In this document: in pieces, positions 1 through 13,819 of the stretch | How the letters are laid out: each line of letters begins with the position of its first letter | Numbering within the stretch: the stretch's first letter is position 1 | NCBI GenBank assembly: GCA_902764345.1 | Contig: CACWVT010000014.1 | Span: 1-38,176 of the forward strand | Direction: 5' to 3' | DNA: 38,176 bases | From: an uncultured Ruminobacter sp. | GTDB lineage: Bacteria; Pseudomonadota; Gammaproteobacteria; Enterobacterales; Succinivibrionaceae | Position numbers and translations under genes: made by a program | The notes under the pieces: generated by a model | What the model saw: the letters and a program-made list of their open reading frames with translations, nothing else | Database searches by the model: none | Told to the model about the DNA's origin: nothing

Positions 1-2200
1 TAGCCGGAACCGTCTTCTTGCCACGGAACAGTCTACAGAAAAATCCCGGCTTTGTATTTTCCACCTTCTTCTCCTCAACCACTTTTTTGACTGATTTCTT
101 ACGGGAATTAGGCAGAATAAACTTGTTCAGACTGCTTTCCGTGCTTGAAGCAAGGGTATCGAGGGTCTGACTGGTAATGGCCAGTGCCTCAATCTGAATC
201 TGATTATCATTAGACAGATCACTGATTCTTTCAATGTTTGAAGAAATGCTTTCAGAGGTCTTCATCTGCTTGTTGACGGAATCGACGATGATGGAAGCCA
301 TTTCGTTAATGTGAACAACGGAAACCTTGATATCGTCAATTGCCCTGCTTGCCTCTTCAGCCTTGTCTTTGGTAAGCATCATCTCTTTTAAACATTCCTC
401 GGAACTGTTTACAGCTTCGATTACGGTATTCTGCAGATCCTCAATCATCTTACGAATATCATTGGCGGAATTAGCCGTTGTATTTGCAAGACTTCTTACC
501 TCATCCGCAACAACCGCAAATCCTCTGCCGTACTCTCCGGCACGGGCAGCCTCAATGGCCGCATTAAGAGCCAGAAGATTTGTCTGTTCGGCCACTCCTC
601 TGATAATGTCGATAATCTTAGCGATATCGGAACTCAGAGTGCTTACATTCTTAATTACCTTGGTGTTCTCCTGAATCTTGTCTGAAAGATCCAGAGTCTT
701 CCCCATACTTTCAGTCATTATATCCTGAGACTTGACGGCTTCGTTCTCCACCCCCTGAATCTCGGTCATGGTACTGCTTACGGCCTTGGCAATGTCATTA
801 ATGTTTACAAGCATTTCATTCATTGCCGAAGCAAGATTCAGTGTCTCATTACGCTGTTCGTTAATCGCATTCTTGGATATGTCGGCTGCGACGAGGTTAT
901 CGGTTGATGCCATTTTAAGTTTTTTGGCGGAATCAGCCATTTTCAGCATCACCTCACCGGTTTCAGCCGTAACCCTGTTCAGATTGTTGATGATAACCCC
1001 AAATTCGTTGACATCCCTGGTTACAATCTGGTTGTCCAGATCACCCTCAGCAAATTCCTTCATTCGTCTGACAATTACTTCCATAGGCTTCTTGATGCTG
1101 CGGCTCAGGAAGAAAAGCACGCCGGCGGTAATAACGAGTGAGAGTATCAGCGACACGATAATAATGATAATGGACTTTTCATATTTATCTGCCGCATGCT
1201 CCTTTGCGCTGGAAAGTTCCTTTGCAACCAGAAGCTGAATGTTGGTTATTTCAGTTTTGATTTCATTAATCCTTTCTCTGGCGGTAATCATGTTCTCCAC
1301 CAGTGCATTGGTATTCTCCACAAGGCGCTCATGCTGTCCGACCACGCCGTTGTCATCACCGCATGAATATTTGAAATTAGCTACCAGAGCACCGATTTCA
1401 TTCTGAGCCTCAGGCATTTCGGAATAAAGATTGTCTGCCCAGTTCTCATATTCATCAAGAAAAACATCAATAGATTTGCGGGCCTTTACGATCTCTTCGG
1501 TGTTGTTTGAGCCCAGAGCCTCAAGAACCTTCTTTTCAGCCAATGACTGATAGGTAAGCAGATTGAGCATGAGATTATCCACGTAGTCATCAAACACCTT
1601 CAGCTTCAGTTCCTGGAGCATCTGTCTGAATACCGGCAACCATGCAATAAAATCAGCCTGACTTTTATTGGCTTTCTGCAGAAGCCGCAGATTATCCTGC
1701 TTAAGCTCCGGCATCACTTTAATGATATTCAGGTAGTCCCTTGAAAGATCCGCAACCTTGGACATACCTCTCATGAGCTCATCATCGTTACGGGAAAAAT
1801 CTATGAATTTGCTGAGACTGTTCTCGAATTCCTCTCTGGAACGATTCATGATAGCCGTCTGTCTCTCAAGCTCCTCCTCTGAGTTTGAATTAATGACGTC
1901 ATAAAGACGCACTGACAGGGAAAGAAGTTTGATTTCAATATCCTGAGACTGATTATTCAGCGGAATGTTTATGTCTGTTATCTCTTCAACGGATGAGTTG
2001 ATACTCTTTATGTTATATCCACCACCGATGGAAAGAAAGAATATAAGAATTATGAGAATACCGAAACCTACGTATACGCCATTGATTATGGACTTTCTGA
2101 CCAGTGCACCGCCGCCAAGGGTCATGACACTCAGCCATTTGTTCCTGATATCGGAAAACAATTTGGCCTTAATTTGCCTGATAAGTTCTTTTATATCCAT
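1..2200 (-). CDS. Methyl-accepting chemotaxis protein, C-terminus cut by window edge
   Basis: This is a membrane chemoreceptor that signals ligand binding to CheA/CheW. It reads open from an ATG at 2200 to base 1, about 733 residues, so its stop lies outside. In order it shows a basic cytoplasmic N-terminus, a membrane segment at about residues 40-60, an all-helical periplasmic domain at about 60-342, a second membrane segment at about 343-366, a HAMP region, and the long signalling hairpin. The conserved tip, with [20 protein letters not shown] and [12 protein letters not shown], lies at about 533-570. A Lys-rich tail follows. The sensor domain of roughly 280 residues is about the size of helical-bimodular types and is larger than a Tar-type four-helix bundle. 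GAGAAG lies about nine bases before the ATG. The ligand is unknown. The sensor resembles the secreted protein at 3619-4503. Confidence 0.95.
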
Positions 2201-2619
2201 ATATCGTTCTTCTCAAGAGATGTTATCCAAAACATGCCTGGAAAGCATGCTGTAGTTCTTCTTTCCGTTCGATTCATTAGAGCCGGAGCCACGCTCAGCT
2301 TGAAACAAAAAGAACACTACATAGGTATGCTGTATTCAATGATAAAATGAACGCCCCAAAAAAAATGAGACAACAGCTATAAATCAAGAAAGAAAAAAGC
2401 TAATAAGGCTTACTGTCATTAGTTTTTTCAAGGGATATCACACACTTTTAATATTTTCTGCAGAGCTTGTTTATGGTTCTGAAAACGCCCTTTCCACCCA
2501 AACACATTCACGACTGGGAAATTCACAAAAAATTCTTTTAGAACCGGATCCTTAGAGAAAACAACAGGTCTCGGCATCATTTCGGCTGAACAAACAACCT
2601 GTTGACCGTAGTGATGTAA
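2201..2619. other. Intergenic region upstream of the chemoreceptor
   Basis: No open frame or RNA gene can be supported here. It should contain the chemoreceptor promoter on the minus strand, but I see no convincing sigma-70 or sigma-28 (flagellar-type) pair. No strong terminator for the lipoprotein gene is visible. Confidence 0.5.
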
Positions 2620-3510
2620 TCAGTGTCCGATATGATAAAACCGGGAAAAACTGCAGAGATTCATGGCGAGACATCCAGATCTGGAATTCAGACCATAACT
2701 GACGTTTTTACCATCGTAGTGCATGTCTATTGCCAGATCAGCTCCTTTCCCGAACTGCGCCTCAGAGGTATTGAACCTGACTATATAATCACTGTCGCCG
2801 CTTACCACCACATCAACCGAATCAACATAATCTGTTCTGAAACTCTTCCAGTTCATCATTCCAGGCATTTTTCCGGCTTCACATATTCCTATCCCGCCAA
2901 AACGGTAAAGACAGTTTTTGAGCTCGGCCACCAATCTCTCAGCAGGCTTTTCCACCTCATCTGAATATATAATCTTCTTTCTGAGATAATCCATGTCCGT
3001 CTTATCGGTTATGAATTTGCGGTTAACGCGTATAAGATTCTCAACCACTCCGATGTCATATGAGAGGTCATAGCCTTTCGCCGCCCCTTTTTCAAGAGAA
3101 ATCAGCTGACGCACACTCATTTCCAGATAAGAGTTGAGCCAGACCTGGTTATTTCTCTGACTGACATACTCAATCAGTGGTCTTCCCCGGAACCTGTCAC
3201 ATGGAACCCCGTTTCTCCCCATTTCGGCAACAAAAAACAGTTCCGGATATTTCTGCATAAAAAAGACGGAAAACCCGGAGTTTCCATGACTCTTCCCGAA
3301 ATCGTCAACATCTTTCCTTACGGCATTAATGTCCAGTCCGGAAAGTTCCTTTATTACGCCTCCATTGCAGGCGGCAATAGTAAGATTCAGAATTTTTTCG
3401 GTTCTGTCTTTATCATCTGACAGGATGGCAGATCCTTCATTTTTCACATCGCAGGAAACAGTTGCCGCAACCAGTACGGGCATAAGAAAAAAGAATTTAT
3501 TCAAACGCAT
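2620..3510 (-). CDS. Putative lipoprotein of unknown function (296 aa)
   Basis: I do not recognise this family. The first 20 residues form a lipoprotein-type signal peptide: a basic start (MRLNK), a hydrophobic core, then TVSC with Cys20 as the likely lipidated residue. The lipobox is not ideal because it lacks Leu at -3. The mature protein is soluble and mixed in composition, with several cysteines (for example Cys48) that could form disulfides in the periplasm. GGAG sits five bases before the ATG. It lies between the chemoreceptor and the secreted sensor-like protein, all on the minus strand. An intrinsic terminator at 3543-3590 separates it from the gene upstream, so it probably has its own promoter. 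A role in sensing is inferred from position only. Confidence 0.75.
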   Translation of the reverse strand: MRLNKFFFLMPVLVAATVSCDVKNEGSAILSDDKDRTEKILNLTIAACNGGVIKELSGLDINAVRKDVDDFGKSHGNSGFSVFFMQKYPELFFVAEMGRNGVPCDRFRGRPLIEYVSQRNNQVWLNSYLEMSVRQLISLEKGAAKGYDLSYDIGVVENLIRVNRKFITDKTDMDYLRKKIIYSDEVEKPAERLVAELKNCLYRFGGIGICEAGKMPGMMNWKSFRTDYVDSVDVVVSGDSDYIVRFNTSEAQFGKGADLAIDMHYDGKNVSYGLNSRSGCLAMNLCSFSRFYHIGH

Positions 3511-3542
3511 TACCGCTCCGAATCAGCATGAAACAACAAAAA

Positions 3543-3590
3543 CAAAAATCCCGTCACCGGCATACAGACAGGACACCGATAACGGGAATG
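3543..3590 (-). terminator. Intrinsic terminator of the secreted helical protein gene
   Basis: Read on the minus strand, arms TCCCGT (3549-3554) and ACGGGA (3582-3587) close a hairpin with extra inner pairs, followed by a run of five T. It begins about 30 bases after the stop codon of the gene at 3619-4503. Confidence 0.7.
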
Positions 3591-3618
3591 CACACATTCT
3601 CAGACCTTGGAATACGTA

Positions 3619-4503
3619 CTAGCCAAGTCTGGCCTTTATCTTGATTTCAACCTTATCAATTTCCTTGATAAGATCCCTTACCGCAGTATGGAAGTAGGCA
3701 TCTATACCATCCTGAACCTCTTTCAGCTGCAGATATGAGTACATTTCCGAACCGTAACCCTTGTTTGCAAACATCTTCTTGAAAGCCTGATTTGCTTCAT
3801 CAAAAGCCTGCTTAAGCTCAGGAAATTCTTCTACATTATCATTTATAAGTCTCATGTATTCGTCATGAGTCTTCTGAACTCTGTCAACAACCTCGGTCAT
3901 CTCAGAACTTGATCTGCTGGCAAACAAATCCTCAATAGCGGTTTCGTATGCTCCGCGAGCACTGGTTATCTGAACATATCTAACTTCCTCTTCAGGAGAA
4001 AAGTTTCTCTTGCTTACCAGATGTTCGGTTTCCCTGATACTCTTGAAAACTCCTGACATTACGACAGGACCGTCCTTATAGTTGTTGTACTTTGCCACAA
4101 TCTCATTCTGGTTGTTGGCATAGTCCTCACACTTGAGGAGAAGCTCCCTCACGTGATTTGCAATTTCAAAAGCTTCAGTAGCATACGGACTTGATGTATT
4201 GTCTTCAAGAACCTTCACAATATAACTCAGTTCTTCTCTGCTACGCCACAGTTCATCACGATTGATAAGAAAATCATCGCGATTGTTGGTATTGGCCATA
4301 AGAATCATTGCAGCATCGAAACGGTATACGTTGGCCTTAAGATCCTTAATCTGAGCAGAACTTACCAGAAATGGAATATCCCCGGAGGTGTAATTTCTCG
4401 GCTCATCAGCCCAGGCTTCCGGCATAAAACCGGCACCTAGGGATAAAACCCCCGCCATCATTAATCCCAGAGATTTTCTACGAAATACATTCAATATATT
4501 CAT
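3619..4503 (-). CDS. Secreted all-helical protein homologous to a chemoreceptor sensor domain (294 aa)
   Basis: This is a periplasmic, probably ligand-binding protein. It has a classical signal peptide with cleavage expected after AWA (Ala32), then about 260 residues of predicted helix and no further membrane segment. It aligns with the ectodomain of the chemoreceptor at 1-2200. RSREE occurs at residues 87-91 here and 120-124 there. About 125 residues later an ungapped 47-residue block (196-242 here, 231-277 there) shares Asp-Glu-Tyr, Glu-x-Pro-Glu and a final Phe-Lys at identical spacing. The frame is open further upstream to 4638. I chose the ATG at 4503 because the signal peptide starts there and because a near-consensus promoter at 4580-4608 lies inside the longer version. 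A detached sensor domain is my inference. Function is unknown. Confidence 0.85.
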   Translation of the reverse strand: MNILNVFRRKSLGLMMAGVLSLGAGFMPEAWADEPRNYTSGDIPFLVSSAQIKDLKANVYRFDAAMILMANTNNRDDFLINRDELWRSREELSYIVKVLEDNTSSPYATEAFEIANHVRELLLKCEDYANNQNEIVAKYNNYKDGPVVMSGVFKSIRETEHLVSKRNFSPEEEVRYVQITSARGAYETAIEDLFASRSSSEMTEVVDRVQKTHDEYMRLINDNVEEFPELKQAFDEANQAFKKMFANKGYGSEMYSYLQLKEVQDGIDAYFHTAVRDLIKEIDKVEIKIKARLG

Positions 4504-4579
4504 TATAGTCTCGCTAAAACTAAAATTACAAAATTTGTCCAAAACTTTTAAATATATTAAGTACACGGATTGTAGGAAA

Positions 4580-4608
4580 ATTATATATTCTGCTACCTGT
4601 CTATCCAA
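4580..4608 (-). promoter_or_regulatory. Sigma-70 type promoter for the secreted helical protein
   Basis: On the minus strand, TTGGAT (4603-4608) and TATAAT (4580-4585) are separated by exactly 17 bases. Transcription would start near 4573, giving a leader of about 70 bases to the ATG at 4503. This rules out the longer open frame beginning at 4638. Confidence 0.75.
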
Positions 4609-4638
4609 CGGCAAAATGACAAACGTGTTACGGCACAT

Positions 4639-5360
4639 ACACTGACTTTTTCATTTTTTCGTCCACATCACAGAAAGGCAGTCATTTTACGTTTACTGAC
4701 AAACATCCTCAGTTTCACATCGTCATCCATGACCATCTTTGCGGATTCCCTTCTGAAAGGAACTCCGGCATAAATAATTCTGATAAAACAGGCTGGTGCG
4801 CCAATACACCAAAACTGATGCAAATTACATGCGCAACCGGTATTGTAACCACTTCCATATCCGAGAAACTCCGATCACGGAACAGAAATGCTTCTGACAA
4901 TTTATTCTGAATATCTGTTTTATCCTTCGGAAGCATCTTTTTATATTTATCTATTCTGCTTTAATCCGGTGAGTACAGCGATTATCTCGCTAATGATCAA
5001 TGTATGCATCCCGCCGGCAGATACTTCCTAAACTCGAAATATTATAAATACGTATGCAACAAAAACATTAGATATTAGGGCACCACCGACAATATTTGTG
5101 ACATATTTAAAAAATCAGAAAAATTTTTCGGACTGGTTATTGAAGAAAAACACATGCACGACCACACAAAAAAAACAAAATGCGGCACATTGCCGTCACA
5201 CTCTCTAAGACAGTGCCAGAGAAACAGGCCATGTGCAGGTCTGTTTTTTCGACGTACATATTTGCTTTTCCGGTTCAGATGCAGTCACGACTAAAAGCAC
5301 ACATGGGATAATCTGTTTATTTTCTTCCTGAAAATCCCCTAAGACTGAACCGTGCCGCAA
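4639..5360. other. Intergenic region without a confident gene
   Basis: A 73-codon minus frame at 4715-4936 is the only notable open frame and looks unconvincing. A terminator-like hairpin on the plus strand lies at 5223-5250. The rest is A+T-rich with no recognised RNA or repeat. Confidence 0.5.
5223..5250 (+). terminator. Orphan terminator-like hairpin on the plus strand
   Basis: AACAGGCC and GGTCTGTT pair over eight positions (one G-T) around a seven-base loop, followed by a T run. No plus-strand gene lies upstream within this window, so it may end an unannotated small RNA or be chance. Confidence 0.45.
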
Positions 5361-5397
5361 AATAAAAAGATCCGCCATCCATTCCGAACAGCGGATC
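5361..5397 (-). terminator. Intrinsic terminator of rubrerythrin
   Basis: On the minus strand, GATCCGC (complement of 5391-5397) pairs with GCGGATC (complement of 5369-5375) around a 15-base loop and is followed by TTTTTATT. It lies about 65 bases after the stop codon. Confidence 0.7.
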
Positions 5398-6525: not shown

Positions 6526-6602
<77 letters not shown>

Positions 6603-6626: not shown

Positions 6627-6703
<77 letters not shown>

Positions 6704-6957: not shown

Positions 6958-8874
6958 TTATTTTACGGAATCTTCACCTTGAAGCCTTCTGGCAAGCTTA
7001 ATGACTCTCTCATATTCAGCATGATGAACCTTTCTGAGATTGCCGATAAAAAGTGACAGATACTCCTTTATGTTCTTTTCATTTTTTTCCTTGTCTGCTA
7101 CAGGCCTTACCGCCACGCCTGCAATCGAAGGAAATACCGGATACTCACTGTCAAGATCATGAACGGACGCATACTCGGAGAAACGATTTACATTACCTCT
7201 TGAATAAATCGCAAGAACTCCTCTTATGCCGCTGTCAAAACCCAAGGCGTTCTTTACGCGGATGCTGTTCATATACTTATTGACCAGCATTGGCAGGGAA
7301 GCTTTTCTTACCGTATCATAAGAGCTGTATTTAGCATCCATGATGAGATAATCCACAAACCCAGAAGCCTCCCACCGGATTCTGATGACAAAATCCGGTG
7401 TGTAGTAGAAATCTCTACCATAGTTCTTACTGCACACAACCATCGGTTCCTCGTCGTCAGTTCTGCCGACAGTAAAGATCTTAGGTTCGTACCACAGCTC
7501 AAGCGTATACTCCTTGTTCTCTGAAAGCCACCGGTAGTAATTAAAAGGTTCACTGAGAGGGCGCTCGGCCACTCTTCCGCCGAAATGATCCACGGACATG
7601 TCATGCCATTCGCGGGAAACACAGATTCCCCCCAGCTGGCTGACAACATTTACTATTCTGGAAAGAACCATGAACTCATAGAGTTTCTCTATCTTCTTGA
7701 AATGAGACGTAAAATCATTAAGAGTCAGCGTAACCGCACTGACACCGTACCATTTAGCCACCTGCTCAAACAGTTTGCGGTAAACTAGAGTTCTTGCCAC
7801 AAAAGGTGTGATTCTGGGCATCAGCGGCTTATCAAGATAATTTATTCCGGTTACCTTCTCAAAACTGGTGTACAGCTTGTAGAAACCGTCAAGAAGGTTC
7901 ATAACCCTGCTGTACTGATTCTGGAGATTCTTGGACAGAACTCCGTGCACGATTCCGGAATATCGGCAATAGCCGGGATACGTCAGAGATTCTCCGTCAG
8001 GCCTTTGCTGACTCTGCTCATGTCCGTTGATAAAATCCTTTACGGCACTCAGCTTCATTCTGATGTGATTTATGAATCCGGCAATTACCAGATTCTCAAA
8101 AAGCCTGTAAGAAGGTATCATTTTCTCTTCTGCCGCAAACTCCGTCTTGACCGGCATATTGTTTATCTGAAAGGTCTGCTCATACGGAGAACACAGAGCA
8201 ACCGCATCACTGTTAAGAGACAGCCAGTGTATGGCCTCCGGAGAATTCGGCAGACCATTAGGAGTTACATCAAGTCTCGGTTCAAGAATGTATCTCAGCT
8301 GTCTTAACAGCACGCTCCACAGACTTTTACATAGAATATATGTTCTTTCCGCCTCATTGATAAGATCGGCAATGACCCCGTTATTTTCAGGATTTCCGTC
8401 CAGACACATCTGAGAAATGGCATCGTAGTCATCATTTATGAAATCCAGTATCGTGGTTATTTCCCTTGCTCGCGCCCTTGTGGCCAGAACCTCGACCTGA
8501 AAAGACTCCTCAAAATACTCTTCTCTGTCAAGAAAACTCTGAATTCTGATTTCATGAACACCCGGCAGCCCGAAAAACGGACGGCCGCAGTGAGCCAGCT
8601 CCGGCCTCCATTCAAGATGCCAGAGTCCCTCTTCGGACAGAAATCCGCAGTAATAACTGTCCTCACCGATTACAATTCTCGGACTTATATCCTCCAGATC
8701 CCCTTCCAGAACCTCGGTATAACGGATATAAATATCAAGATAATAGTCCTCGGGGATTTCCAGAAAACCCGTTTCCGAATCAAATCTCAGTGCGGAATCA
8801 TCACTAACCACGTCATAGATCTTTCTGTTTTCCTGGTTAGTGTGCTCCGAAACCGCCAACTTAACGTCTAACAT
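6958..8874 (-). CDS. DUF2357 / PD-(D/E)XK nuclease protein, McrC-like (638 aa)
   Basis: This is the probable nuclease subunit of a McrBC-like restriction system. The N-terminal part is a beta-rich region (about 1-130), followed by a helical DUF2357-like region. The C-terminal part carries a PD-(D/E)XK core: Pro-Asp at about 491-492 (PDFVIRI), a strand, then Asp-Ala-Lys at about 512-514 (IMDAKYSS). This matches the DUF2357 plus DUF524 (PF09823/PF04411) architecture that pairs with McrB-like ATPases. AAGGAG lies seven bases before the ATG. The gene starts 48 bases after the ATPase gene ends on the same strand, so the two are probably one operon. The catalytic motif appears intact. The family call rests on motifs and context; targets are unknown. 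Confidence 0.85.
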   Translation of the reverse strand: MLDVKLAVSEHTNQENRKIYDVVSDDSALRFDSETGFLEIPEDYYLDIYIRYTEVLEGDLEDISPRIVIGEDSYYCGFLSEEGLWHLEWRPELAHCGRPFFGLPGVHEIRIQSFLDREEYFEESFQVEVLATRARAREITTILDFINDDYDAISQMCLDGNPENNGVIADLINEAERTYILCKSLWSVLLRQLRYILEPRLDVTPNGLPNSPEAIHWLSLNSDAVALCSPYEQTFQINNMPVKTEFAAEEKMIPSYRLFENLVIAGFINHIRMKLSAVKDFINGHEQSQQRPDGESLTYPGYCRYSGIVHGVLSKNLQNQYSRVMNLLDGFYKLYTSFEKVTGINYLDKPLMPRITPFVARTLVYRKLFEQVAKWYGVSAVTLTLNDFTSHFKKIEKLYEFMVLSRIVNVVSQLGGICVSREWHDMSVDHFGGRVAERPLSEPFNYYRWLSENKEYTLELWYEPKIFTVGRTDDEEPMVVCSKNYGRDFYYTPDFVIRIRWEASGFVDYLIMDAKYSSYDTVRKASLPMLVNKYMNSIRVKNALGFDSGIRGVLAIYSRGNVNRFSEYASVHDLDSEYPVFPSIAGVAVRPVADKEKNEKNIKEYLSLFIGNLRKVHHAEYERVIKLARRLQGEDSVK

Positions 8875-8922: not shown

Positions 8923-11900
8923 CTATGCCAGGAACTGATAGCTGTTCATGCGGTCTTCACCCTCGGAAATAATTCTCTGCAGTACGGTCTGGGATTCAGT
9001 GAGATTATACTTATCCAGAATATTCAGAAGCTCTTCAAGGCGGTTACCGAAACTTTCACCAAAGCCGTTAATCATCGGCAGCACGAACTGTTTAATGGCA
9101 AAATCCATTGCTATGGTTTCATTATCACAGTTCTTCAGTGATGCCAGCAGAGGATCAACCACTGAAAGATAATTTATAATCTGCTGATGCTTTCTGTATG
9201 ACACAACGATTCTCTGACCTAGCTTACTGTCATCCTTGTAGAGAATCTCCTCAACATCATTCAGTACGGCATACATCTTGTTCTGAATTCTGCCATCTTC
9301 CGTATCAAACAGAGACATCCAGTCTGCAGCACTGTACGTGGTCTGCATTGCATGAGGGATAATCTTTGTTGTTCTGTTGTCATCACTCTGGCTCGGCTTT
9401 TCATCAAAAAGGATAACGGCAGAGCGGTCCAGCATTCTTGCAGACATGATGTTTACGGTATCATCACTGTTTACGGTTCCGACAAAACGCAGATATGAAG
9501 GAATTGTCAGATATGCCTTTTCAGGTGAACCGGTAAAGATCTTTCTTTCAGCAGCCGTATCAGCATCGGCAAGCTGCATGAATGATGAAAAATAATGTTC
9601 AGGAGAAGACAGATTCATTTCATCAAGAAGCAGAATGGCAGGGGTTACGCCGTTCATGTTCTTCTCGGCATCCAGAGTCGTCAGAAGCTCCCACAGACCT
9701 GTTGGGGCCGGCTGGAAACTGCTGGTAAGACTGTTCCAGTACCCCATTATATCCCGCTGAGATGTCCAGCCTCTGGCTACGGGAATGGTATGCAGACGAT
9801 TCCCCAAATTAAGAGCCTTACCCATGGTCTTAACAAAGGAAGTCTTACCTGAGCCCGGAAGCCCTGCCAGAATGGTAAACTGATTCTGGGCTATTGTAAC
9901 CACCATGGATACTAGTTTCTCAACGGAAATGGAGCGACCGTAACTCTTCATTGAGCTCAGCAGTTCCTCAATGTATCTCTTCCTTCCTTTATTAAGGTTA
10001 TCTATATTAATGATTGATGGCACACCGCTGTCAAAATTAAAACTGCTTTCCTTAACCTGTCTTGGTGTGGTGAAAGCCTTCAGCATGGAATGCATCTCCA
10101 GATAACGGGAACTGAGATCGGCGAATGAATGGTTCAGCTCCTCATCTATATTGTCCTTGGTTCTGCGCAGCTCATCCACCTGCTTCTTAAGGCTTTCGTA
10201 CTCATTCATAAGCTTTCTGTATTCAGACTTTAAAGCCTCATGCTCCTCAGAGGATACGATTTTGCCCTTAACCTTGACCTGAATCTTGGAATCTCTTGCA
10301 GCCACGGCGGCAGTATCCTTTGAGTCCTCTGCAGACTGCTCCTCGGACTCAACCCTGTTTTTGAGAGAATTCAGAACCTTTTTCTTCTGAGCTATTTCAG
10401 AATTGATGCGTTCAAGCTCCTTCTGCTCTCTGTCCTTCTCCTTTTTGACATTACTGAACAGATCCTTGCGGTAGTTTGCCAGGATGGATTCAAGGTTTTC
10501 ATTAATGTAGGTATTGAAGAACTCCTGGAACTTTGAAGTCTTCATCAGCATGCTGAAAAACCTGTTTCGTTCATTATCGAACTCAACAACACCCTGAAGG
10601 ATGTTAAAACATCTCGTTACGCGATCATGTTCATTCTTAAAAAGAGACAGTCCCTGAATATTCTGTTTAACCTTGGACAGCTGATTTATATTCAGATCCT
10701 TAAATACCGGATTGAGAAGAGTCGGTGCATAATTATCAATAAGCTTCTTGTCGTCGATAAGATCATGCTTCCTGCCACTGTTAAGCCAGCTCTGTACCGG
10801 CATCTGTACCAGATACCTTCTGACAATACCGTTAACATTAACCTCTTTTATGTAATCCTGAAGAAGATCGTATTCCACGGACTTGACGCAGGAATTCATG
10901 TCATCCTTAACGGCAAGCTGACAGCGCTTGTCAGGAATGTTCAGCACACATTCACATGAATATTCTCCACCGTCTTCAGTCTGCTTGAATTTTCCGACAA
11001 CAAAAGGTCCAAGCAGAACCTTTCTTGTTTTTATGAGAGACAGCAGTTTGTCTGAGAACACGGGAATATCCACCTTGGACATGGAATCTCCATATTCAGG
11101 AATCTGAATCTCTTCCTCCTCTTCCTCTTCGACAATCCCCAGAATCCCGTGCCCGGAAGGAAACTCATCCCTGTATGAGCGTCTGATTTCCCTGGTTACC
11201 TTGTTTACCGCTTTACCGAGAGAATTTGCTCCGGAGCCTTCAGCAGTCTTATTAATAATGGTAAAATCCATTGATTCAGTCAGTGCGTTAATTACCGGAT
11301 CCTCAGAAGAACAGCTTTCAGCCCTGCCTTTAAGATATCCGTATTTCCATTTCTCGGTATCAGCTCTGTAGGTGGTTTCGGTAATAATATATTCATTACT
11401 GCGCCCGCCGGGACCTTCGGCAAATGATCCGGTACCGGCCTTTTCCTTAGGAACAGCGGTCTGTGAAACCGGAGCTGCAGAAGACGCAGGGGATTCAGCA
11501 GCTGACTCCCTGTCAGAAACAGAAACTGTCCCTGAAGTCTGCACACCTATCGCTACTGCAGGCTCCGCTGCCATGACAGATTCTTTTTCAGAATCATTCC
11601 CGGTAACAGCAACATCCTCAGAATTCTTATCAGAACACTCCTCTACAGAGTCATCATCACTACCATGACACAATTTTGACAGGGCGTTCTCAACGCCGAC
11701 TTTGGCTCTGATGCCATTTGCCACCCTGGCAGCAGTATAGGACAGGAATCCATTATCTTCAGAAAGCTTTTTAAGACCTTCTCTGACAGATTCCCTGATT
11801 CTGTTCTCATCAGGTTTCTCACTTCCCAACTCCTCATGAGTCAGATCGGAACATACAATTTTATTAATGCTGCTGAAGAATCTTCTGTTCAGTTCGGTTA

Positions 11901-12504
11901 CGGCATGGATGTTATTCGCAATGAAACTACCCGCATTATCCAGGGTAATTTCACCATATGTGGAGTAAAAACAGTCCTTAAGGTACTTTTCCGCATCCTC
12001 CCGTCTGAAAAATTCCTCTGTTTTACTGACAAACGGAAAATCCTCCTTATCCACTATGAATTTAGTACACTTAACCACGACATAGTCTGTACTCGGTCTG
12101 TATTTCATAGAGGCAACCCTTTCGGTCGCAAAGAGGTTCTCAATCCTTGGTTCTACAATTTCCACAAAATCGTAGGGATCAACCTTGCTCATTTTTTCAT
12201 TATGTACCGTATATTTGCATCCCCGCTCCTCAGGAGACGTATTTGCAATGAGCCGTATCAGATGCTCCTCTCCGAATTTTGCTATTGAGTTTTTGGCATT
12301 GGATGTCAGAAACACCTTCGGCACCTCATCCAGAAACTTCTCCTGATTGACAATTCCGTATCTCTCGTGCCGGGTTTTGTCATATTCTTCCGTAAACTGC
12401 TCAAAAGCAATGTCCACGTATGAACAATCTTTATTGTTTGATTTTGTAACATATGTATGAGGATCTATGATCCCGACAAGTATTCTTTCTTCAAAATTGC
12501 TCAT
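8923..12504 (-). CDS. McrB-like AAA+ ATPase with long coiled coil (1193 aa)
   Basis: This is the predicted NTP-driven motor and recognition subunit of the system. The N-terminal region (about 1-285) is unrecognised. A Ser/Ala/Glu-rich, probably disordered linker spans about 290-370, and a run of six Glu lies near 459. A middle domain (about 470-680) is followed by a strong coiled coil (about 685-790). The C-terminal AAA+ module has Walker A GLPGSGKT (about 879), Walker B AILLLDEMN (about 955) and GTVNSDD (about 1007) in the place of the McrB signature Asn-containing motif. GTP or ATP cannot be told from sequence. The frame is open to 12543, but I chose the ATG at 12504 because AGAGGA lies eight bases upstream. 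It is far longer than E. coli McrB, mainly through its N-terminal extension. Confidence 0.85.
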   Translation of the reverse strand: MSNFEERILVGIIDPHTYVTKSNNKDCSYVDIAFEQFTEEYDKTRHERYGIVNQEKFLDEVPKVFLTSNAKNSIAKFGEEHLIRLIANTSPEERGCKYTVHNEKMSKVDPYDFVEIVEPRIENLFATERVASMKYRPSTDYVVVKCTKFIVDKEDFPFVSKTEEFFRREDAEKYLKDCFYSTYGEITLDNAGSFIANNIHAVTELNRRFFSSINKIVCSDLTHEELGSEKPDENRIRESVREGLKKLSEDNGFLSYTAARVANGIRAKVGVENALSKLCHGSDDDSVEECSDKNSEDVAVTGNDSEKESVMAAEPAVAIGVQTSGTVSVSDRESAAESPASSAAPVSQTAVPKEKAGTGSFAEGPGGRSNEYIITETTYRADTEKWKYGYLKGRAESCSSEDPVINALTESMDFTIINKTAEGSGANSLGKAVNKVTREIRRSYRDEFPSGHGILGIVEEEEEEEIQIPEYGDSMSKVDIPVFSDKLLSLIKTRKVLLGPFVVGKFKQTEDGGEYSCECVLNIPDKRCQLAVKDDMNSCVKSVEYDLLQDYIKEVNVNGIVRRYLVQMPVQSWLNSGRKHDLIDDKKLIDNYAPTLLNPVFKDLNINQLSKVKQNIQGLSLFKNEHDRVTRCFNILQGVVEFDNERNRFFSMLMKTSKFQEFFNTYINENLESILANYRKDLFSNVKKEKDREQKELERINSEIAQKKKVLNSLKNRVESEEQSAEDSKDTAAVAARDSKIQVKVKGKIVSSEEHEALKSEYRKLMNEYESLKKQVDELRRTKDNIDEELNHSFADLSSRYLEMHSMLKAFTTPRQVKESSFNFDSGVPSIINIDNLNKGRKRYIEELLSSMKSYGRSISVEKLVSMVVTIAQNQFTILAGLPGSGKTSFVKTMGKALNLGNRLHTIPVARGWTSQRDIMGYWNSLTSSFQPAPTGLWELLTTLDAEKNMNGVTPAILLLDEMNLSSPEHYFSSFMQLADADTAAERKIFTGSPEKAYLTIPSYLRFVGTVNSDDTVNIMSARMLDRSAVILFDEKPSQSDDNRTTKIIPHAMQTTYSAADWMSLFDTEDGRIQNKMYAVLNDVEEILYKDDSKLGQRIVVSYRKHQQIINYLSVVDPLLASLKNCDNETIAMDFAIKQFVLPMINGFGESFGNRLEELLNILDKYNLTESQTVLQRIISEGEDRMNSYQFLA

Positions 12505-13819
12505 TTTAATCGTCCTCTGAATGATGCCGGCGACTGCCTGCATGCTTTTCCTGTTTATGTCATATATAAGGGGGAATGCTCATATATATGGATATGCACG
12601 GGTGACATCGGTTTATATCCACACATTACCATATAAAGGAACAATGCCGGGCTTTTCCCAAAAACGCAGAAATCCGGCTGGCACAGGTCAAACGCTCCCC
12701 GGCGTGTGCCTGCATACGGAAGGGATAAAGAATTACGGCTCCGGCTTTCGGAATGACTTCAATCATTCCTGCGGAATATGATGAAAAAGCCTCAGGTGCA
12801 GATGGCAGACTTCTTTATGGATTAAATATTGTTTCCGCAAAGCAGAAAGAATACGTTTATCTCCCCCTAACAATGATTCTAACGCATATGAAAGACAATA
12901 TAAAAATAAAGAGGGCTGTATTGTGAAATGCGACAACAGCATATATTCCAACTGTATAAAAAACAAACTTAAAGGATATGACGTACTTAAAAAACAATCT
13001 TGCAGACCTTAAAACCACGCAGAACAAAAAACATTTCCCGGAGACATGACATAAGACAACACTTCAGCACAAACACAGGAAAACGAAAAAAACAGCAGGA
13101 AAAAATTGAAGAAATTCCGGATAAAGGTATTGGAAAAAGAAAAACAAACCAGAAAAAACAGCAAAAAAGAGGTCTAAAAATTGCCAAAAAAGATTAAAAA
13201 GGAAACAGATAACAGAAAAAATACTTTCAAAAACAGTCTATTTTTAAAACAAAACTTGATAATTGTCACGTTTTTACTAATTTTATTTCAGTCTGAATCT
13301 AGTAAATTTACATTTATTTAACATTTACAGACATTCCAAAATATTAATCATCAGAAGCATCTGGACGCATCATCAAAGAACCATGAGAACGACCAACCTC
13401 TTCATTCGAAAAAGAACATCAGGTAAAAAATAACAGCTGAACGGACATTAACCGGTGGCAGATGCCACAACGCCTTATTTTTCAACAAAAAAGTCAAGAA
13501 TGTATGGAATAGCAAACGCATCAAAACATAAAACCGTTTACAAAACCACCAATTTTCAGACAGTGAAAACACATCAAAAAAAGACGACAGCAGGGAGAAA
13601 AAACCAAAGAAAAAATTTATTAATTGAGTAGATATAGAAAAGATTAATTAAGGGTATTAATCACCAATAATAACAAAAGCCCTTGAATTTAACTTATTTT
13701 TAACAAGATAATCAAGAAAAAAGTCGGCTTTCAGTGATGAAAAAAAATAATTTATGTAATACAATAAGCTCATTCGAAAAGTCTTTATTTCGGATACGAG
13801 AATTCGGTAAAACACCATT
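12505..13819. other. A+T-rich gene-poor region
   Basis: No convincing gene is visible over about 1.3 kb. It contains a perfect 7-bp hairpin GGAATGA-CTTCAA-TCATTCC at 12750-12769 with no T run. It also has a strongly A-rich stretch (about 12950-13650) in which a Lys-rich open frame arises by composition, and one TTATTTAA at 13314. The ATPase promoter must lie at its left end but was not resolved. Confidence 0.5.

Follow-up and report, generated by a model that had tools for sequence, protein, structure and literature searches.

A free, exported protein encoded near a Ruminobacter chemoreceptor is a distant relative, not a copy, of the receptor sensor domain

The window, by which we mean the whole stretch of DNA analysed here, comprises 38,176 nucleotides of a contig (CACWVT010000014.1) from an uncultured Ruminobacter sp. 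of the Succinivibrionaceae. Three minus-strand genes near its start are of interest (Table 1), coding for an exported protein of 294 aa, a lipoprotein-like protein of 296 aa and a chemoreceptor (MCP). A preliminary description of this DNA had placed a secreted 294-aa protein at 3619-4503 without giving the strand; the open reading frame is borne out, and it runs on the minus strand. The protein begins with MNILNVFRRKSLGLMMAG, with an apparent cleavage after AWA. Export was judged by eye and by a hydropathy scan. The family to which the protein belongs has seven members when it is counted in (291-307 aa), and all seven show by eye an A/V-x-A end at the signal-peptide position; in only three of them does this stretch exceed the hydrophobicity threshold of the TM scan, the window protein lying below it. 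The scan found no membrane segment after the signal peptide in any of the seven members, in agreement with the earlier statement that the protein lacks a membrane anchor. The start of the window protein is the same in three genus-mates (G001, G002 and G003, compared here together with the window's own genome, G000, as the genus Ruminobacter), and a longer reading of 339 aa starting at 4638 was rejected, as it is absent from these three.

A terminator is predicted 3' of the gene from the fold of the region; it is missing from a stricter terminator scan, the total of which (3) equals the shuffled mean. Promoter-like sites such as the one upstream of the gene number 7 in the consensus scan vs 9.5 in shuffles. 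Rfam returned two tRNAs only over the window, lying side by side with equal scores. Beyond them, an AAA_5 ATPase of 1206 aa, which matches the PADLOC candidate defence family PDC-M26A (8.4e-31), stands beside a 638-aa protein with no Pfam or PADLOC match. We take these two to resemble a McrBC-type pair, and similar genes adjoin this locus, by look, in G001, G003 and G011.

The contig ends within the MCP, of which 733 aa are present. It has Pfam matches to MCPsignal (1.2e-38), HAMP (1e-7) and 4HB_MCP_1 (1.3e-6), arranged in the order TM1 (38-56), ectodomain, TM2 (344-362), HAMP and MCPsignal. Its ectodomain lies between two TM segments, as in a receptor, an arrangement that the free protein does not have. 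All four Ruminobacter genomes carry another gene between the pair. In three of them (the window's own, G001 and G003) it is the 296-aa gene, for whose lipoprotein-like product no Pfam or NCBIfam family was found, and which was not seen at the same place in G002, G008, G009 or G011. A relationship of the 296-aa protein to pilins was considered and is unsupported by BLASTP (best E 6.0). In G002 the intervening gene is a second MCP (L014 5798-7744), similar by eye to the C13 MCP of G000 (L026).

Table 1. Positions of the features discussed (window coordinates unless a locus is named)
Feature	Position	Strand	Basis
Neighbouring chemoreceptor (MCP), 733 aa up to contig end	2..2200	-	MCPsignal, HAMP and 4HB_MCP_1 matches
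MCP ectodomain used in comparisons, residues 60-342	1175..2023	-	AlphaFold2 pLDDT 87.7, pTM 0.77; PDB matches
296-aa lipoprotein-like protein between the pair	2620..3510	-	Pfam/NCBIfam: no match
Predicted intrinsic terminator 3' of the gene, 15-pair stem then T run	3549..3587	-	fold of region
Gene of the 294-aa exported, very probably HBM-like protein	3619..4503	-	ORF; one of seven family members
Mature all-helical domain, residues 33-294	3622..4407	-	AlphaFold2 pLDDT 86.9, pTM 0.74; PDB matches
Glu-x40-Pro-Glu signature, residues 187-229	3817..3945	-	shared with MCP residues 222, 263 and 264, at identical spacing in the two proteins of the window
Second conserved stretch, residues 126-133	4105..4128	-	E126, Y128, N130, Q132, N133 invariant 7/7
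Conserved stretch, residues 75-93	4225..4281	-	R75, F78, L79, R82, D83, L85, S88, R89, E90, L92, S93 invariant 7/7
Signal-peptide-like stretch, residues 1-32, ending AWA	4408..4503	-	by eye
Promoter-like site upstream, 10/12 matches	4580..4607	-	consensus scan only
Two tRNA genes	6526-6599 and 6627-6700	+	Rfam
638-aa protein and AAA_5 ATPase	6958-8874 and 8923-12543	-	PADLOC PDC-M26A match of the ATPase
Anchored ectodomain copy, G000 C11	L062 9614-10714		A2 search
Anchored ectodomain copy, G001 C31	L048 1381-2481		A2 search
Anchored ectodomain copy, G003 C87	L063 148-1260		A2 search

The preliminary description had aligned the free protein with the nearby ectodomain on the strength of a shared RSREE and an ungapped block of 47 residues. 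RSREE starts at residue 87 in the free protein and at residue 120 in the MCP; from it to the first Glu of the block there are 100 and 102 residues, respectively, and to DEY 127 and 129, so that the two-residue difference first described holds, but not the distances of 125 and 123. Within the block 9 residues are identical, for a BLOSUM62 score of 35; shuffled ectodomains reach 34 on average with their best ungapped segment. The best ungapped segment of the pair scores 45, in another register, and 10/300 shuffles reach this value; BLASTP of the free protein against the MCP gives an E of 0.051 in a one-sequence database, also in the other register. The pairwise evidence for a resemblance is at chance level, which agrees with the view that two helical bundles merely look alike.

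A different result was obtained with profiles, which confirm the homology and also the register first proposed. The alignment of the seven free homologues (A1) was compared with that of six MCP ectodomains from the same loci (A2), which leaves out G021 and the partner MCP of G008, whose gene is split by a frame change. Taken as values for one pair of profiles, the hhalign E is 1.3e-5 for A1 against A2 (probability 80.6%, 223 columns), with RSREE and the Glu/Pro-Glu block in that register, 1.1e-6 in the reverse direction (91.1%), and 4.6e-8 for A1 against 24 pooled MCP ectodomains (94.9%). The free protein and the MCP-family ectodomain therefore have significant profile homology in one collinear register. 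With the signal peptide removed, the scores in the two directions are 44.4 and 51.2. Reversed profiles reach 16.7 and 18.1, and the cytoplasmic part of the MCPs 13.6 to 13.8; the maximum in 120 block shuffles is 26.8, none of them being as good as the real pair. Moreover, the link between the two families was recovered by unprompted searches in both directions, A1 leading to an MCP ectodomain of G019 (2.9e-6) and A2 to the free homologue of G008 (6.6e-6).

The signal is not confined to the neighbouring receptor, since the free homologues also match the ectodomains of other, non-partner MCPs. When MCPs were taken in groups of 3 to 7, the partner group scored highest with the free-protein profile (44.7 vs 20.0 to 31.1), and 17 pooled non-partner MCPs scored 50.8. 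The plain HMM of the free family matched MCPs of G019 (1.1e-7), G021 (2e-6) and G011 (9.6e-6), and then others more weakly; the best single match is a non-partner MCP, and the window's own MCP is unmatched at E up to 10. One group, the type 1 MCPs of g5, scored alone no better than its reversed control (20.0 vs 19.1), which, like the pairwise scores, would be expected if the likeness of the two bundles were due to chance. Against this, the partner and pooled groups score 44 to 60, far from the shuffles and from the reversed controls (13.3 to 19.1), the helical cytoplasmic part of the very same MCPs stays at background, the profile matches are reciprocal, and both proteins find the same specific folds, as described below. 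Chance similarity of helical bundles was rejected on the reversed, shuffled and cytoplasmic controls, and we regard it as very improbable.

AlphaFold2 models of the free protein and the MCP ectodomain, built on four-sequence alignments, have similar folds, that of the free protein being all-helical. DSSP splits them into 8 and 7 helices, respectively; the helix order matches if helices 76-110 and 113-132 of the free protein are equated with the single MCP helix 81-142, and the first and third helices of the MCP ectodomain are longer than those of the free protein. The leading PDB matches of both models are the sensor domains of McpS, TorS and PilJ, with a Foldseek probability of 1.00, at ranks 1-10 for the free protein and 1-12 for the MCP, followed by mostly unrelated long helical proteins at lower probability. 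Judged by these matches of predicted models, the fold would be the six-helix, two-module HBM fold. The TM-scores against the McpS, TorS and PilJ chains are moderate (0.32-0.67 for the free protein, 0.39-0.63 for the MCP ectodomain), neither model has a Foldseek match below E 1e-3, and the Pfam HBM model matches neither the free protein nor the MCP at E up to 10; for these reasons we speak of HBM-like proteins and not of members of the Pfam HBM family. Searching the sequences of solved structures with either profile gave no meaningful match. Solute-binding proteins like TorT and PstS have a two-lobed alpha/beta fold, which the free protein does not share, given its all-helical model and the lack of any such Pfam match. 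TorT is an alpha/beta binding protein and is not known as a relative of the TorS sensor; likewise, solute-binding proteins of the PstS type are not known to be related to the sensor domain of their receptor.

Both the structure predictions and the profile-profile comparison had been proposed as checks in the preliminary description, which would have given way to unrelated folds or to the lack of a significant profile match. Neither outcome was seen: according to both profiles and models, the free, exported protein is related to the sensor domain of the neighbouring receptor and is predicted to fold like it. That the free protein is an HBM-like homologue of the MCP ectodomain can be held with high confidence.

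The word copy, which had also been used for it, does not apply. Comparison within four genomes shows the free protein and the ectodomain of its partner to be 11.4 to 13.3% identical. A tree was built from 34 rows (24 MCP ectodomains, 3 anchored copies described below and 7 free proteins); in it the free proteins come together as a single clade (100/100) that is set apart from every MCP ectodomain, and the stem of this clade measures 2.62 changes per column. The tree is midpoint-rooted and long branches meet in it, as the program warned, so only this separateness is safe. It was made without the pieces of the G008 partner MCP, which fell below the cut-off, and with the C41 MCP of G008, the gene of which is apparently also split. 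Partner-type MCPs fall outside a group of 17 others (97/97), and a single clade of partner MCPs is unsupported. The free protein neither groups with the neighbouring MCP nor has clear identity to it, and a recent duplication of the neighbour's ectodomain was rejected on the identity and the tree.

The conserved residues tell the same story. Within the two conserved stretches of the free family (Table 1), R89 is the one residue of the first that is likewise conserved in the partner MCP ectodomains, and Y128 the one residue of the second that is common to the MCP side. At 22 positions both sides, the free family and the partner-type MCPs, show conservation, and at 9 of them the residue is the same; six of the nine (Pro, Tyr, Glu, Pro, Gly and Ile) also occur in at least 17 of the 24 MCPs. 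The shared residues of the preliminary description survive in part. The Glu and the Pro-Glu of the block, and in addition a Gly, stand at matching positions, and the three residues of the Glu-x40-Pro-Glu signature are invariant in 7/7 free members and 7/7 partner-type MCPs. RSREE, on the other hand, was rejected as a shared functional motif: letter for letter it is found only in G000 and G001 among the six A2 MCPs, and only its second Arg is kept on both sides (7/7 free proteins, 6/7 partner MCPs, 13/24 MCP ectodomains). In degree of conservation the free protein equals or exceeds the partner ectodomain: against G002, G011 and G009 it is 61, 33 and 31% conserved, the partner ectodomain 47, 29 and 26%, which speaks for a role beside the MCP. 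Low identity, a separate clade and conserved residues of its own indicate that the free protein is an old relative of the receptor sensor domain, with a conserved site of its own. It is a distant relative and not a copy, and its homologues, as noted, match the ectodomains of other MCPs too.

The true recent copies of the receptor sensor domain, as far as sequence comparison tells, are other genes. The A2 search found ectodomain-only proteins of 366, 366 and 370 aa in G000, G001 and G003, respectively, and no such anchored copy in G002. A Pfam scan of the G000 and G003 proteins gave no sign of HAMP or MCPsignal, and a PF00015 search found four MCPs in G000, none of them on C11, where its copy lies. 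In the G000 and G001 copies, a lipobox-like signal peptide (by eye) replaces the first TM, and a TM and a short tail follow the ectodomain. The G003 copy has a zinc-ribbon-like start (Pfam E 5.1e-5, below the family cut-off) and one TM before the ectodomain, a second TM not being found in the scan. Compared with the MCP ectodomain encoded in the same genome, the copies of G000, G001 and G003 show 57, 57 and 72% identity, and in the tree they sit beside it separately (99/96 and 98/97). Such separate placements point to two origins, or else to a single one with later gene conversion; apparently the copies arose twice.

A ligand scavenger, a decoy and a protein docking on the receptor were the candidate roles first put forward. 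The anchored copies bear on the idea that the free protein is a negative regulator or decoy, which would pair with the MCP ectodomain or take its ligand and so damp signalling. The free protein is indeed a sensor domain without output, and the recent copies in three Ruminobacter genomes, with two supported origins, suggest that an ectodomain without output is of use to this genus. These anchored copies are, however, much better candidates for decoys than the free protein. With an identity of 11-13% and conserved residues that for the most part differ, the latter probably does not share a ligand and its mode of binding with the MCP; a plain decoy also fits poorly with the strongly conserved polar positions of the free family itself. 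We consider a decoy quite unlikely.

The free protein was found in 7/56 Succinivibrionaceae genomes, belonging to four genera (the profile search gave 8 matches, one of which is the G019 MCP). Outside this family there was no match in samples of the order (394 genomes) and of the class (369 genomes). The order sample returned seven Succinivibrionaceae matches, namely six free proteins and the G019 MCP ectodomain, with G008 missing, and the class sample returned the window's own genome only. MCP ectodomains of the A2 kind are present in 15/56 genomes of the family. The same pair recurs, as a search proposed at the outset has now revealed, in every genome that has the free protein: in 7/7 it is followed on the same strand, 0.4-3.0 kb downstream, by a partner-type MCP, the gaps being 1418 (G000), 1423 (G001), 1427 (G003), 3037 (G002), 361 (G011), 467 (G009) and 729 bases (G008). 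Partner-type is a label by place; the G008 MCP, the gene of which is split by a frame change, was counted by place and by its A2 match (5.0e-46), not by the tree.

Conversely, a partner-type MCP occurs in eight genomes, seven of which have the free protein. In the eighth, G021 (84% complete), only 157 bases of contig are left upstream of the MCP, fewer than separate the pair in G011 of the same genus, and the absence of the free protein there was therefore not counted. Related MCPs without the free protein are found in seven other genomes (five of g5 and two of g11); around two non-partner MCPs, those of G007 and G019, nothing resembling the free protein was seen by eye among the neighbouring genes. 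Fold class, distant homology, a single deep clade and persistence near one kind of MCP are the computed properties of the free protein.

This persistence admits more than one explanation. The pair is probably not one transcript, given the strong predicted terminator after the free gene and another, in G011, between the free gene and the MCP. The Sel1 and BON lipoproteins downstream of the MCP are also kept (by look, Pfam having been run on those of G001 only), and the proximity of the pair may for this reason reflect a generally stable gene block. Downstream of the G001 MCP (L015) lie genes for a 160-aa protein of no known family (4899-5381), a Sel1/TPR protein (2547-4574) and a BON-domain lipoprotein (1314-2198); by look, other genera have this set, whole or in part, after the MCP. 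In G008, G009 and G011, a type IV pilin gene is the upstream neighbour of the free gene (Pfam N_methyl was tested on one G009 gene). The pilin-like genes in these three genera lie at L011 8803-9378, L012 12368-12964 and 11283-11891, and L013 10075-10662, and their relatives in the window's own genome are on C26 and elsewhere.

Such an arrangement would suit an independent periplasmic binding protein that has left signalling for the binding or buffering of a ligand, or for another task in the envelope such as assembling pili or keeping the envelope intact, and that stays near the MCP through inherited gene order. Its own conserved residues, its own terminator, the wider block kept with the Sel1 and BON lipoproteins and the upstream pilin genes all favour this reading, yet the free protein is found in no genome clearly without a partner-type MCP, although only seven genomes bear on the point. 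We regard such independence as possible but doubtful.

Any role beside the MCP has to be seen in cells that seem to lack flagella. FlhA was found in 0/4 Ruminobacter genomes (92-97% complete) and in 14/14 of the other family genomes tested (14 of 52). R. amylophilus is non-motile. The window's own genome has CheA-, CheB-, CheY-, CheW- and ParA-like genes in one cluster (named by look, with CheW-domain matches by search), and keeps ATPases of the type IV pilus/type II secretion kind together with pilin-like genes. Since FlhA is not found while chemosensory and pilus-type genes are kept, the output of the MCP in Ruminobacter is probably directed to type IV pili or another non-flagellar target. 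According to passages of one article, PilJ was reported to contact PilA, later data speaking against this model (PMC10896506); by analogy with this report, a pilus-related ligand for the pair may be put forward as a fair guess only.

Binding, docking and an effect on signalling are what we infer for the free protein as a functional accessory of the neighbouring MCP, a role that we think the best of the readings and to which we give about even chances. It would be a soluble periplasmic sensor domain of the HBM-like kind, split long ago from the ectodomains of this MCP family; its two membrane anchors would have disappeared and a signal peptide been acquired. The polar positions conserved in the free family, Arg/Asp/Glu on the second helix and Glu/Tyr/Asn/Gln on the third (helices as assigned by DSSP of the model), may serve to bind a small ligand or some other partner in the periplasm. 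The protein could then pack sideways on the MCP ectodomain, in the way HBM/4HB sensor domains pack in dimers, and this packing would change the signal of the receptor to CheA. The order of events, with the ligand bound first and docking afterwards, is a tentative element of the scheme that may well be wrong.

A bolder reading would see in the free domain of the Succinivibrionaceae a diffusible periplasmic co-receptor of a chemoreceptor of the same fold family, and in Ruminobacter a genus that has twice evolved anchored, output-less ectodomains. As a whole, this reading seems rather improbable to us. If it were true, chemoreceptor signalling would be tuned by free and headless sensor domains in flagella-less cells, in parallel to co-receptors and decoy receptors. 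A conserved free form together with recurrent output-less copies would mean that bacteria modulate a chemoreceptor with spare sensor domains. It would also offer a lead on the role of chemoreceptors in bacteria without flagella. HBM-type sensor domains are described as parts of receptors in passages of two articles (PMC12632253, PMC9769921), and searches of an open-access library, which lacks most subscription papers, turned up neither a free HBM domain nor an MCP ectodomain without output.

Among known systems, the nearest in predicted fold are full receptors. The ligand-binding domain of McpS of Pseudomonas putida, an HBM domain (PDB 2yfa, 2yfb), resembles the free protein with a Foldseek probability of 1.00, a TMq of 0.54-0.57 and an identity of 14-15%; it is, however, the ectodomain of a transmembrane MCP, whereas the window protein is free and exported and has no Pfam HBM match. 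The periplasmic region of PilJ of P. aeruginosa (PDB 7zjr, 8wdf), the structure of which is given as HBM-type in parts of PMC12632253, is matched with a probability of 1.00 and a TMq of 0.57-0.62, and the type IV pilin gene beside the free homologue in three genera adds to this likeness. PilJ, nevertheless, is a full MCP of the Pil-Chp system, while the free domain lacks both TM and signalling part. In Corynebacterium glutamicum, GlnX likewise has sensor modules of the 4HB type without a standard signalling domain, but it is a multi-pass membrane protein that consists of a duplicated 4HB unit and has the binding protein GlnH as its partner (passages of PMC9769921).

Periplasmic proteins that act on such receptors are also known. 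PstS may deliver a ligand to the MCP CtpL, according to parts of PMC12632253; the window protein differs from the PstS type in being all-helical in its model. The TorS sensor (PDB 3o1h, 3o1i, 3o1j, 3i9y, 3i9w) is resembled by the models of both the free protein and the MCP ectodomain, and the titles of the PDB entries make TorT-TorS a precedent for a periplasmic protein acting on a sensor of this kind. The pair encoded in the window differs from TorT-TorS in that the candidate partner protein has the fold of the receptor itself.
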